Assembly: GCA_003635265.1 (NCBI GenBank)
Contig: PYIZ01000044.1
Coordinates: 1-64,000, forward strand
Direction of reading: 5' to 3'
Source of the DNA: Candidatus Poribacteria bacterium
GTDB taxonomy: Bacteria > Poribacteria > WGA-4E > PCPOR2b
DNA length: 64,000 nucleotides
The translations under genes were made by a program, and so were the position numbers. The notes beneath the pieces were generated by a model, which worked only from the letters and a program-made list of their open reading frames with translations, made no database searches and was not told the DNA's origin. Positions 21,824 to 26,851 of the stretch are shown one piece after another. Position 1 is the stretch's first letter. Every line of letters starts with the position of its first letter.

Positions 21824-22038
21824 GTGCGTAAAACGTGAAACGTAAAGGGACTGATTGCGTGTTGGGTTTCACTGTATTCATCTATAATGAGAGTGGTGTC
21901 GAAAGGCAGCATCTCTGTTGTGCTTGATAAGGATTCGCGTTTAGGCGTTCAACCCAACCTACATCGAACCAGACGGCTTCATGTCTCGTTTTCTGGTTTT
22001 CCCATTTTCCTGTTTTTACGTTTCACACATCACGTTTC
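21824..22038. repeat. Repeat island bounded by inverted A-type repeats
   Basis: The left edge is GCGTAAAACGTGAAACGTAA (21826-21845). The right edge (22015-22040) is the same family in reverse orientation (TTACGTTTC, then CACGTTTCA). Nested inside is an inverted pair GTTGGGTT (21861-21868) and AACCCAAC (21951-21958). No ORF is present. The right edge includes the stop codon of the alcohol dehydrogenase gene. The layout is symmetrical, as in MITE- or REPIN-like elements. Confidence 0.55.
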
Positions 22039-23053
22039 ATTCCCACGGTTTTAGGATCATCTTGCTATTCTGATGAGACGATGAAATCTCAAAAGCCCGA
22101 TGGATCTCGCTCATCGGGATGACGTGGCTGACAAGCAGATCAATCAGCGGTGATTCTTGGATGACTGTCATGATGCCCGGAAAATCACTCAGATTATAGT
22201 GCCAGTTGCCGATGATGGTGAGCCCCTTGCGGATAAGGTCTGGGCTGACGCGAAGCGGCAAATCCTGTCCACATTCTCCAACGTAAGCGACCTTCCCCTT
22301 GCGCCGTGCTGCGTCGATACAGAGTCTCTCGGCTTGAACCGTCCCGGAGCAGTCCAGCGCGCAATCCACACCGATTCCATCCGTCAAATCTTTGATTTTC
22401 TGAACGATTTCAGGATCGCTTGGGTTAAGGACTTCTGCGGCACCCATCTGCTTCACCCAATCAACACGCCACGGTACGGACTCCACTGCGATGACCCGTG
22501 CACCACGAAAACGCGCATTGACGACCGCACCAAACCCAACCGGACCGATGCCAGTAATCAGGACAGTATCATAGGCACTCAAGCCCATCGTCTGGAACGC
22601 GCCAAATGAGGGGCCCAGTGCACAGCAGGCAAGACCGGCATGTTCATAAAGCACTCCATCTGGAATTTTCGGCAGAATCCAAGAAGGTTTTAGGAGATAT
22701 TGCGCCATCGTTGCCCGTCCTTCAGATGCACCGGTAAAGGCTGTAAAATCGTAAGCGTTTTCGCAATGAATGTAGTCACCATCAACGCACAGATGACATG
22801 TGCCACACGGATACTGCGGCATCACGACCACCCGATCTCCCTCTTTGACCTTCCCCGGCTGCGCTACTGCGACGACCTCTCCCGCTGCTTCGTGTCCGAG
22901 GAATTCCGATTTGCCCCCTGACATATAGCCTTTGTATTCGGTGCACATCGGTGCCGCGTGTACTTTGACAACGACCCAATCCTCTTTGGGGTGTGGATCT
23001 GGAACTTCAGCAATTCCCGCTTGGCGTTCTCCAAGTATGACAGCTTTTTTCAT
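22037..23053 (-). CDS. Zinc-dependent medium-chain alcohol/sorbitol-type dehydrogenase
   Basis: The 338-residue MDR-family dehydrogenase has a catalytic-zinc Cys (PMCTEYKG), the GHEAAGEV motif and a structural zinc lobe with four cysteines (CGTCHLC then C seven residues on). The nucleotide-binding loop is GIGPVG. The substrate is likely a sugar alcohol or secondary alcohol, oxidised with NAD(P). The stop TGA lies inside an A-type repeat. No operon partner is evident. Divergent from it, after about 130 bases, begins the ileS promoter. Confidence 0.88.
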   Translation of the reverse strand: MKKAVILGERQAGIAEVPDPHPKEDWVVVKVHAAPMCTEYKGYMSGGKSEFLGHEAAGEVVAVAQPGKVKEGDRVVVMPQYPCGTCHLCVDGDYIHCENAYDFTAFTGASEGRATMAQYLLKPSWILPKIPDGVLYEHAGLACCALGPSFGAFQTMGLSAYDTVLITGIGPVGFGAVVNARFRGARVIAVESVPWRVDWVKQMGAAEVLNPSDPEIVQKIKDLTDGIGVDCALDCSGTVQAERLCIDAARRKGKVAYVGECGQDLPLRVSPDLIRKGLTIIGNWHYNLSDFPGIMTVIQESPLIDLLVSHVIPMSEIHRAFEISSSHQNSKMILKPWE

Positions 23054-23179: not shown

Positions 23180-23208
23180 TTGACATCCCCGCAAACTTCT
23201 GTTACTAT
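23180..23208 (+). promoter_or_regulatory. Promoter of the ileS leader
   Basis: TTGACA at 23180-23185 is a perfect -35 box, and TACTAT at 23203-23208 lies 17 bases on. The predicted start near 23215 gives a leader of about 275 bases before ileS, holding a short ORF and a terminator. Confidence 0.7.
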
Positions 23209-23234
23209 ACTGTTTTGTTGGATAAAAATCAAAC

Positions 23235-23381
23235 ATGGAGATTCGCATCGTGTACTCTTCACCATCAACCCATAAATCCATACGCGAGACTGAAAGCCGG
23301 AATATACGTCTTTCTATTGGAATTATTTCTATTATCATTATTATTCCGTCTTGCGATGGTGGGCTGATGGAGACAAAGTAA
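23235..23381 (+). CDS. Isoleucine-rich leader peptide of the ileS attenuator
   Basis: An uninterrupted 48-codon ORF begins at ATG 23235 and ends at TAA 23379-23381. Twelve of its 48 residues are Ile, and residues 28-37 read IGIISIIIII, eight Ile codons in ten. An alternative start is the GTG at 23250, which has GGAG nine bases upstream and gives 43 residues with the same Ile run. Immediately after the run, bases 23354-23364 (CGATGGTGGGC) can pair with the left arm of the downstream terminator. The arrangement is that of leader peptides that sense charged tRNA by ribosome stalling, known from amino-acid operons such as ilv, leu, his, thr and pheST. The gene controlled here is ileS. Function is inferred; no homology search was possible. 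Confidence 0.8.
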   Translation: MEIRIVYSSPSTHKSIRETESRNIRLSIGIISIIIIIPSCDGGLMETK

Positions 23382-23410
23382 ACTCGATTACAGCAGTCAT
23401 AACAATACAA

Positions 23411-23451
23411 ACGCCCATCATCGAAGAAGTTCGGTGATGGGCGTTTTTTTT
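23411..23451 (+). terminator. Intrinsic terminator (attenuator) upstream of ileS
   Basis: ACGCCCATCATCGAA (23411-23425) pairs with TTCGGTGATGGGCGT (23430-23444) in a 15-bp stem with one G-T wobble and loop GAAG. It is followed by eight T (23444-23451). It lies 40 bases before the ileS start and 30 bases after the leader stop. The left arm can instead pair over 11 bases with 23354-23364, so two exclusive folds exist. Confidence 0.9.
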
Positions 23452-23491
23452 GCAAGGAAGTTCATACACATTTTACACACAGGAGAAAAGC

Positions 23492-26400
23492 ATGTTCAAA
23501 GATGTACCCAATACAGTAGACTTCGTTGCCCAAGAGCATCAGATCTTAGACTTCTGGCGCGACAGCGAGGTTTTTCACAAACTCCGGGAGCTGCGACAGG
23601 AGGGACCTCGCTGGAGTTTTATTGATGGACCAATCACCGCCAATAACCCGATGGGTGTCCACCACGCATGGGGTCGGACATACAAAGATCTCTTTCAGCG
23701 ATTCAAAGCCATGCAAGGTTATCAGACCCGATACCAGAACGGTTTTGATTGCCAAGGACTCTGGATTGAGGTCAATGTCGAGCGTGACATGGGTTTCAAA
23801 GCCAAAAAGGACATTGAAGCTTATGGATTAGATGAATTTGTCAACGCCTGCAAGCGGCAGGTGCTCCGTCATGCAGCCACGCAGACCGAACAATCTATGC
23901 GACTCGGTTACTGGATGGACTGGAACGATCCGGATCTCTTACGCGAATTAGAAAAGAAGATGGCACAAGATCCCTTACAGCCTCTCACCGTAGAGGGACC
24001 GAATGGTCCCGTCACAGATACGGTTGAGCAACTTGTCGGAAGACTCGGATTGCCGGAGTTGGGCGGATCTTACTTCACATTTTCCAACGAGAACAACTAT
24101 ACCATCTGGACGATGCTGAAAAAATGCTTCGATCGTGGCTGGATCTATAAAGGCACGGATGTCATGCCGTGGTGTTCGCGGTGCGATACCGGCATCAGCC
24201 AACACGAGATTGTCACCGACGGATACCGGGAACTCACGCATACCAGCATCTTTCTCCACTTCCCGCTGCGTAACCGTCCCGATGAGAGCCTGTTGGTCTG
24301 GACGACGACGCCGTGGACGTTGACGAGCAATGTTGCAGCGGCGGTGCATCCAGATCTAACTTACGTTTTGGTGGAACAGGACGAGCATCGTTTCTGGTTG
24401 AGCAAGGGAGCGTTAGAGAACGCCATTCAGGGAGATCATCAGATTCTTGAGGAGAAATCCGGCAGCGAGTTGGAAGGTTGGACCTATGACGGTCCCTTCG
24501 ATGAACTGCCAGCCCAACAGACCTCTGGCGCAGCTGAGGGGCACCGCGTGATCCTGTGGGACGAAGTCGGAGAAGCGGAAGGTACAGGAATCGTTCACAC
24601 CGCACCGGGCTGCGGTGCTGAGGACTTTGAATTGAGTAAGGAACAAGACCTCCCTGTCATCGCACCGTTGGGAGCAGAGGGGATCTATCTTGACGGGTTC
24701 GACTGGCTGACAGGTCGCCAAGTCCACACCGTCGCGGAAGACATATTTGAAAACTTAAAGCAGAAAGGGATTATCTATCGCCTTGAAGACTACACCCACC
24801 GCTATCCGGTGTGTTGGCGCTGCGAAGAGGAACTAGTCTTCCGTCTTGTGGATGAATGGTTCATCTCAATGGGTGAACAGTTGGATAAACCGTATGAACA
24901 GGTGACGGAGGCAGAGAAGGAACATAACCTGCGCTACCAGATGATGGAGGTTGTCCTTAATGAAACTAAGTGGTATCCCTCATTCGGACTCGCCCGTGAA
25001 CTCGACTGGCTGCGCAATATGCACGACTGGATGATCTCTAAGAAACGTTACTGGGGACTGGCACTCCCAATCTACGAATGCAACGAATGCAGCCATTTTC
25101 ACGTCGTCGGGAGTTTGGAGGAGTTGAAGGAACTCGCCGTTGAAGGATGGGAGGAGTTTGAGGGGCATACGCCCCACCGTCCATGGATTGATGCGGTGAA
25201 GATCGCCTGCCCAAGTTGTGGTGCCGCTGTCTCCCGTATCCCGGACGTTGGAAATCCTTGGTTAGATGCCGGTATCGTCAGCTTCAGCACGATGCAGTAT
25301 CGCACCGATCGTGACTACTGGAGCCAATGGTTTCCCGCCGATCTAATCAGCGAGAGCTTTCCCGGACAGTTTCGTAACTGGTTCTATTCGCTCATCGCAA
25401 TGAGTACGGTGATGGAACGACGCTCTCCGTTTAAGCAGAATTTCAGTTATGCGACGCTGTTTGCGGAAGACGGACGCGCAATGCACAAGTCTTGGGGTAA
25501 CGCCATCTGGTTTGATGACGCCGCCGAGACGATGGGCGTGGATGTGATGCGCTGGATGTACTGCGCCGCCAAACCGGAACAGAACCTGCTCTTTGGTTAC
25601 AAGCATTCCGATGAGGTCCGCCGCCAGGTTCTCATCCCGTTCTGGAATGTGTATAGTTTCCTCGTCACCTATGCCAACGTTGACGGTTGGAAACCGGACG
25701 CAAACCTCTGGAAAGAAACGCCACAAACGTCTGAAAATCTGCTTGACCGTTGGATTTTATCGCGTCTGCAAAGCACAGTCCGCTCGGTAACGGAGCGCTT
25801 GGAAGAATATTCACCCGATGGTGCCTGCCGTGTGGTTGAGGATTTTCTGGATGATCTGTCGAACTGGTATCTGCGTCGCAGCCGGCGGCGATTCTGGAAA
25901 TCGGAAACGGATACAGATAAGGAAGCTGCCTATCAGACCCTGTATCAAGTTATAGTGACGACTAGCCGCCTGTTAGCACCGTTTGTCCCCTTCGTTACGG
26001 AGTCAATCTTCCAAAATCTGGTGTGTTCGGTTGATTCGGATGCTCCTGAAAGTGTCCACCTCTCCGATTACCCCGCTGTGGAAGAAGATCTCGTTGACAT
26101 CTCACTGGAAGATGACATGCGGCTTACACGCGACCTAATCGGTTTGGGACGTGCTGCTCGGAATCAATCAGGGATCAAGACACGGCAACCGATCGGATGC
26201 ATCGGGATCGGTGGTATCTCCGAAAATCAACAAGCTGCCGTTAATCGTCTGTCCCCACTCGTCTTGGATGAACTGAACGTCAAAGAAATCTCTTTCCATG
26301 AGGGGATTGACGAGTTTGCAACCTACACAATCAAGCCGAATTTCAAGCTGCTGGGCCCGAAATACGGCAAAAACGTCCAAGTGATTGCCAGAGCAATGGC

Positions 26401-26851
26401 ATCGACCGATGCACTCACTCTCAAACAGGAACTAGATGGGAATGGCGAGCTAGAGATTCAGGCGGACGGTGTAAATTACACGCTAGAAAGGGCAGAGGTT
26501 GATGTACAGTCGGAGAACCGGGAGGGCTACGCCGTTGAGGCGGATGCCCACAAGTTTGTCGCTCTCTCGACAGAATTGACGCATGAACTCATCCTTGAGG
26601 GATTCGCACGAGAATTGGTCAACAAGATTCAGCAGATTCGGAAGGAAGCCGATTTCAATGTTTCTGATCGGATCTCGCTCAGTTTGGAATCGACGCCAAT
26701 CGTCCACGAAGCGTTTGACCGTCACCGTGACTACATCACACACGAGACCTTGGTGCTGCATGTTGTTGAATCATCAAATCCGAACGCTTTTCTGAAATCA
26801 CAGAAGGTCAACGGCGAAGATGCAACAATTGGCGTGGAGCAGGTGACGTAG
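23492..26851 (+). CDS. ileS: Isoleucyl-tRNA synthetase, divergent type
   Basis: This large class Ia synthetase (1119 residues) attaches isoleucine to tRNA. The HIGH-equivalent is PMGVHHAWG (residues 53-61). The editing domain shows WTTTPWTLTSN and GTGIVHTAPGCGAEDF. The KMSKS-equivalent is MHKSW (664-668), retaining the second lysine but otherwise unusual. Cysteine pairs (VCWRC, CNEC, CPSC) suggest zinc sites. The C-terminal anticodon-binding and extension regions resemble the long IleRS type. The start at 23492 has AGGAG eight bases upstream; upstream in-frame codons lie in the terminator. An Ile-run leader peptide in front of it independently supports Ile, rather than Val or Leu, specificity. 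Confidence 0.93.
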   Translation: MFKDVPNTVDFVAQEHQILDFWRDSEVFHKLRELRQEGPRWSFIDGPITANNPMGVHHAWGRTYKDLFQRFKAMQGYQTRYQNGFDCQGLWIEVNVERDMGFKAKKDIEAYGLDEFVNACKRQVLRHAATQTEQSMRLGYWMDWNDPDLLRELEKKMAQDPLQPLTVEGPNGPVTDTVEQLVGRLGLPELGGSYFTFSNENNYTIWTMLKKCFDRGWIYKGTDVMPWCSRCDTGISQHEIVTDGYRELTHTSIFLHFPLRNRPDESLLVWTTTPWTLTSNVAAAVHPDLTYVLVEQDEHRFWLSKGALENAIQGDHQILEEKSGSELEGWTYDGPFDELPAQQTSGAAEGHRVILWDEVGEAEGTGIVHTAPGCGAEDFELSKEQDLPVIAPLGAEGIYLDGFDWLTGRQVHTVAEDIFENLKQKGIIYRLEDYTHRYPVCWRCEEELVFRLVDEWFISMGEQLDKPYEQVTEAEKEHNLRYQMMEVVLNETKWYPSFGLARELDWLRNMHDWMISKKRYWGLALPIYECNECSHFHVVGSLEELKELAVEGWEEFEGHTPHRPWIDAVKIACPSCGAAVSRIPDVGNPWLDAGIVSFSTMQYRTDRDYWSQWFPADLISESFPGQFRNWFYSLIAMSTVMERRSPFKQNFSYATLFAEDGRAMHKSWGNAIWFDDAAETMGVDVMRWMYCAAKPEQNLLFGYKHSDEVRRQVLIPFWNVYSFLVTYANVDGWKPDANLWKETPQTSENLLDRWILSRLQSTVRSVTERLEEYSPDGACRVVEDFLDDLSNWYLRRSRRRFWKSETDTDKEAAYQTLYQVIVTTSRLLAPFVPFVTESIFQNLVCSVDSDAPESVHLSDYPAVEEDLVDISLEDDMRLTRDLIGLGRAARNQSGIKTRQPIGCIGIGGISENQQAAVNRLSPLVLDELNVKEISFHEGIDEFATYTIKPNFKLLGPKYGKNVQVIARAMASTDALTLKQELDGNGELEIQADGVNYTLERAEVDVQSENREGYAVEADAHKFVALSTELTHELILEGFARELVNKIQQIRKEADFNVSDRISLSLESTPIVHEAFDRHRDYITHETLVLHVVESSNPNAFLKSQKVNGEDATIGVEQVT

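Follow-up and report, generated by a model that had tools for sequence, protein, structure and literature searches.

The 64,000-nucleotide stretch of DNA analysed here (the window) comes from a Candidatus Poribacteria MAG, and its ileS gene is in all likelihood preceded by a classical ribosome-mediated transcription attenuator, a member of a phylum-wide set that shares a single scaffold. The attenuator very probably tunes ileS through a short Ile-rich leader peptide and a stop signal that can be switched, and we consider it very likely functional. This interpretation, put forward in an earlier note on this DNA, is supported by Ile codons, an antiterminator pairing between segments 2 and 3 (2:3) and a terminator in relatives, by the occurrence of the scaffold across the phylum, and by leader codons that track the gene downstream.

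Architecture of the ileS leader region

The promoter, the Ile-run leader ORF, the 2:3 antiterminator, the terminator and ileS all lie in the order and at the places originally proposed. The proposed promoter, TTGACA-17-TACTAT (23180–23208, plus strand), was the top promoter-like match on the plus strand in a consensus scan, and it is kept in same-genus relatives, including locus L041. The ileS gene (23492–26851, plus strand) encodes an isoleucyl-tRNA synthetase of 1119 aa with a C-terminal DUF5915 domain, as identified with Pfam and with the NCBIfam model TIGR00392 (695 bits, exceeding the cut-off). The gene on the 5′ side of the attenuator (22037–23053) is divergent, lying on the opposite strand, and the terminator therefore has no upstream gene to serve.

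The leader had been described as an open frame at 23235–23381 containing IGIISIIIII. The frame and the Ile run are present, but GTG 23250 is a likelier start than ATG 23235, which we disfavour because it overlaps the Shine-Dalgarno sequence GGAG (23237–23240, plus strand) and is unconserved. Three same-genus relatives that retain the leader have GAGGAG or AAGGAG in place of this ATG, while the GTG and the GGAG are conserved. With GTG 23250 as the most likely start, the predicted leader ORF spans 43 codons (23250–23381, plus strand; VYSSPSTHKSIRETESRNIRLSIGIISIIIIIPSCDGGLMETK), as supported by the alignment of relatives (pN/pS 0.34–0.86), and the sole internal length difference among the same-genus leaders (n = 4) is one codon. 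The control region (23316–23345, plus strand) has Ile at 8 of its 10 codons, and most ileS leaders across Poribacteria are likewise Ile-rich. The region thus has the short ORF of a classical attenuator, with a run of cognate codons and a ribosome-binding site.

Between this ORF and the structural gene lies an intrinsic terminator (23409–23451, plus strand), recovered by scan, folds and covariation, with a loop of 4 and eight T (23444–23451). While the terminator and its T run were noticed earlier, the stem is 17 bp long (23409–23446) rather than the 15 bp then given. Its right arm is segment 4 (23430–23446, plus strand), and its left arm includes segment 3 (23413–23423, plus strand; GCCCATCATCG), which pairs alternatively with segment 2 (23353–23364, plus strand; GCGATGGTGGGC), a near-invariant stretch in alignments A4 and A5. 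The 2:3 helix (23354–23364 with 23413–23423; 11 bp, one wobble) agreed exactly with the original description, and 11 bp were reached in only 2 of 3000 dinucleotide shuffles. It is situated just 3′ of the control codons and is mutually exclusive with the terminator.

Segment 1, the protector (23259–23288, plus strand), was delimited by the minimum-energy fold, and throughout the family it shows covariation with segment 2. The earlier note had paired CACCATC (23260–23266) with 23355–23361; these are indeed complementary, but the pairing is weak in the window alone, being matched or exceeded in 32 of 500 shuffles. This 7-bp register is superseded by family-wide complementarity and by a longer register, 23259–23288 with 23350–23373, favoured in the whole-leader fold (z = −6.83; 0 of 200 shuffles equally low). 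The fold of the window and the family complementarity point to a 1:2 protector that would form without translation, although this pairing was not evident in the relatives L043 and L044.

We infer from this architecture that the leader is translated, that ribosomes stall in it and which way expression responds. A ribosome would trail RNA polymerase through the 43-codon leader and, with ample Ile-tRNA, would get to the stop codon and cover or melt segment 2; the 3:4 terminator could then form, and ileS would not be transcribed. With charged tRNA-Ile scarce, the ribosome would stall in the Ile run and leave segment 2 free to pair with segment 3, preventing termination. Were the leader untranslated, segment 1 would pair with segment 2 and the terminator would form. 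In the corresponding folds, RNA beginning 3′ of a ribosome stalled on the Ile codons, with its end at 23425–23435, had the 11-bp antiterminator as its minimum-energy structure, and the terminator alone formed when the ribosome was placed at the stop codon. Once segment 4 was complete the terminator was more stable than the antiterminator; antitermination must therefore be kinetic, as it is in known attenuators.

Conservation among relatives and across Poribacteria

In a comparison of relatives, which the earlier note had suggested, Ile codons were kept in three of four same-genus and two of three other-family relatives, and the terminator and 2:3 pairing in all seven aligned members, the 2:3 pairs with at most wobbles, one gap aside. 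The leader with its Ile codons, segment 2 and the terminator recur in L039, L040 and L042 from the same genus, in L043 from another family and in L098 from a further family of the class, and L039 carried compensatory changes in its terminator. Locus L044 retained the scaffold with only 4 Ile codons in its whole leader. In both L043 and L044 the leader stops just 5′ of segment 2, which would place that segment beneath a ribosome terminating there. At L041 (upstream of position 2501; same-genus G001, OY282444.1) the promoter is kept and the leader and terminator are deleted, and this locus is, by its sequence, a natural attenuator-less ileS. Separately, L044 (2185–2500) and L016 (1300–1500) have alike sequence, with CCGGTTCG and CGAACC motifs, between terminator and ileS, perhaps an intergenic repeat.

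Across the phylum, a covariance model of the Ile run plus the scaffold (R1) matched 69 of 85 Poribacteria genomes, including loci before a second ileS type and before other genes. A model of segments 2–4 alone, without the leader codons (R2), matched 76 of the 85, a count that is descriptive since R2 was trained on 32 of the matched loci. The same model matched none of 20 genomes with the nearest ileS relatives outside the phylum (chiefly Chloroflexota). The second ileS type is only ∼35–45% identical to that of the window, and a fully supported branch separates the two in the ileS tree. This tree does not indicate whether window-type ileS passed from Poribacteria to Chloroflexota or the other way. 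Scaffold and leader precede ileS through most of Poribacteria. In leaders of the second type, the stop codon directly follows segment 2 in 47 of 60 cases, and the last cognate codon lies ∼10 nt 5′ of segment 2.

The terminator and the 1:2 pairing both covary within this family. In the 3:4 stem, 94.6% of positions were paired and 9 of 13 pairs showed double changes (0 of 500 shuffles), and the 2:3 stem was 93.4% paired with weaker covariation than 3:4. Complementarity of segment 1 to segment 2 exceeded that of shuffles, with a mean shuffle p of 0.26 over 39 genus-gene units, 13 of them at p ≤ 0.05, and the 1:2 partners change jointly (CACCATC/GATGGTG, ACCAC/GTGGT, ACCGC/GCGGT, CTATCA/TGATAG).

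One ileS attenuator, in G006, has a ∼7.4 kb prophage-like element between leader and terminator (L304:559–8027; G006:C21, ∼175158–182626). The element encodes a tyrosine integrase and two ORFs of a phage capsid family, and the terminator arm GCCCATYATCGAAAC occurs at both of its ends and looks like its attachment site.

Leader codons, downstream genes and alternative readings

Genes downstream of the scaffold matches, named by NCBIfam and Pfam, were ileS (65), aroF-type DAHP synthase (16), a CBM9-domain gene (16), leuS (9), aroG-type DAHP synthase (6), tyrS (5), cimA/leuA (4), argD (1) and a few singles. Leader codons differ by gene: Ile before ileS and cimA (for cimA, AVIAIIIIIRIAAP in G062), Leu before leuS (LALRLRLLGLLRL in G063) and leuA, Tyr before tyrS (NFYYYYCG in G059), Tyr/Phe before the two DAHP synthases (for DAHP synthase, LYLYLYLYLYSYARW in G036) and Arg before argD, the last a single Arg-rich case (SFIRVRRSRSG; L246, G008:C692). 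We quantified this match with leader frames picked via Shine-Dalgarno sequence and start codon, ignoring composition, and scored the 18 codons 5′ of the scaffold. Cognate residues made up 27.6% of the control region, compared to 14.0% with genes permuted (32 genus-gene units), and 0 of 20,000 permutations were as high.

These results lead us to lean, if only slightly, towards a broader scenario: that one scaffold spread by copying within the phylum, was refitted to other amino acids by leader-codon change alone, came to serve ileS, tyrS, leuS, DAHP synthase, cimA, leuA and argD in place of T-boxes, and remained with ileS through the exchange of the enzyme for a deeply different one. Because several kinds of amino-acid gene have codon-matched leaders on alike segments 1–4, phylogeny can be used to test how attenuators arose and spread; such origins are otherwise hard to trace because of great differences between operons.

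Several loci depart from the pattern. In family f5, the ileS leaders (L182 and L197; G061 and G062) have no Ile run and are Phe/Leu/Tyr-rich, with scaffold and a strong segment 1 present. The 16 matches before the CBM9-domain gene (genus g8: L190, L199, L202, L204 and others) share a conserved leader, MFYLSSITLIHKNCLCTFIGLGVVLIGISMCRAVVGE, whose codon content indicates no clear cognate amino acid. Such mixed hydrophobic leaders on the same scaffold would suit an arrest peptide or a general translation sensor, in which stalling is set by the nascent peptide or by any slow ribosome and not by tRNA-Ile, but the amino acid tracks the gene and the peptide is otherwise poorly conserved, and we regard this explanation as highly improbable for ileS.

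A plainer explanation is that the hairpin does no more than end transcripts that are antisense or spurious, with the Ile run being chance AT-rich low-complexity coding. AT-rich DNA does yield Ile runs easily, and the palindromic hairpin scores on the other strand too. However, the upstream gene is divergent, and the permutation result leaves little room for chance, with Ile before ileS and Tyr, Leu and Arg before tyrS, leuS and argD on one scaffold. Moreover, at E ≤ 1 the scaffold was found at two places only in the window's own 5.3-Mb genome, one of them a terminator without segment 2, which also disposes of the scaffold as a general terminator of these genomes. We therefore consider a mere terminator extremely improbable and retain ribosome-mediated attenuation as our reading. 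The own-genome terminator that has no segment 2 (L241:1506–1541; G000:C33) lies 5′ of leuS and is perhaps a decayed leuS attenuator; elsewhere in the phylum, several weaker leuS matches had no convincing leader.

Known leader-peptide systems and T-boxes

Among aminoacyl-tRNA synthetase genes, attenuators are on record for pheST, and Streptomyces trpS and leuS have been predicted to carry them (PMC1262725). Those of pheST in gamma-proteobacteria and of trpS and leuS in some Streptomyces resemble the Poribacteria element in having a cognate-rich leader peptide, an antiterminator and a terminator before the synthetase gene (PMC1262725), whereas the Poribacteria element concerns Ile, belongs to another phylum, and has one scaffold sequence common to several kinds of gene. 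The earlier note knew of no described Ile-leader attenuator of ileS in this kind of organism. We found none for Poribacteria either, but a leader CDS of ileS, CCNA_03934, is on record from ribosome profiling in Caulobacter crescentus (PMC4117421), and the arrangement is therefore not wholly unprecedented. Compared by description only, the two are alike in having a short CDS before ileS, translated in Caulobacter and predicted to be translated in Poribacteria; CCNA_03934 differs in being reported as a CDS, and we found no terminator mechanism described for it. In bacilli, a His leader peptide replaces the T-box at hisS paralogues, and leader-peptide systems were at that time stated to be known in Proteobacteria and Actinobacteria only (PMC2965389). 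The bacilli case is similar in that a leader peptide takes the position that a T-box has before the corresponding gene of relatives; in contrast, the Poribacteria case is at ileS, in a phylum that retains T-boxes for pheS and ilv genes.

We found no description of attenuation in Poribacteria in the open-licence literature, where the one text mentioning both is a review of antibiotics; this search may miss older work, and as far as searched leader-peptide attenuation is new for this phylum. The element would place classical leader-peptide attenuation in an uncultured phylum, at a gene commonly named as an example of T-box control, and leader codon content could serve to predict the controlling amino acid of genes in organisms that are unculturable.

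T-boxes are described for ileS in Actinobacteria (PMC1262725). In related Chloroflexota, T-boxes (RF00230) control the same gene by sensing tRNA-Ile charging. They occur in ileS operons, mostly ahead of a presumed alaX-like gene followed by ileS, and 6 of 17 loci were above the curated score. When ∼70 further ileS genes, mostly from Chloroflexota, were examined for an upstream Ile-rich ORF followed by a terminator, only isolated weak Ile-ORF matches were obtained, and no comparable leader. These Chloroflexota T-boxes, and others in the window's own genome, are what could suggest that the Poribacteria ileS is controlled by a riboswitch that binds tRNA or some other ligand directly, such as a T-box, a reading that we find scarcely credible given that no Rfam family matched anywhere in the window, that no T-box structure (stem I, specifier, antiterminator) was found in the window or at the Poribacteria ileS loci scanned, and that the T-boxes of the window's own genome precede pheS and ilvB.

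The earlier note had placed T-boxes of aminoacyl-tRNA synthetase genes in Firmicutes and Actinobacteria, and leader-peptide attenuation of amino-acid operons and pheST in proteobacteria; no T-box was found at the Poribacteria ileS loci scanned, but the phylum does have T-boxes. The idea that Poribacteria lack them proved wrong, as there are about two per genome, located before pheS and before ilvB or ilvD in the genomes inspected. Those of the window's genome are L311 and L312 (G000:C36 and C50). With T-boxes and putative leader-peptide attenuators both present, two ways of sensing uncharged tRNA thus appear to coexist in one genome.
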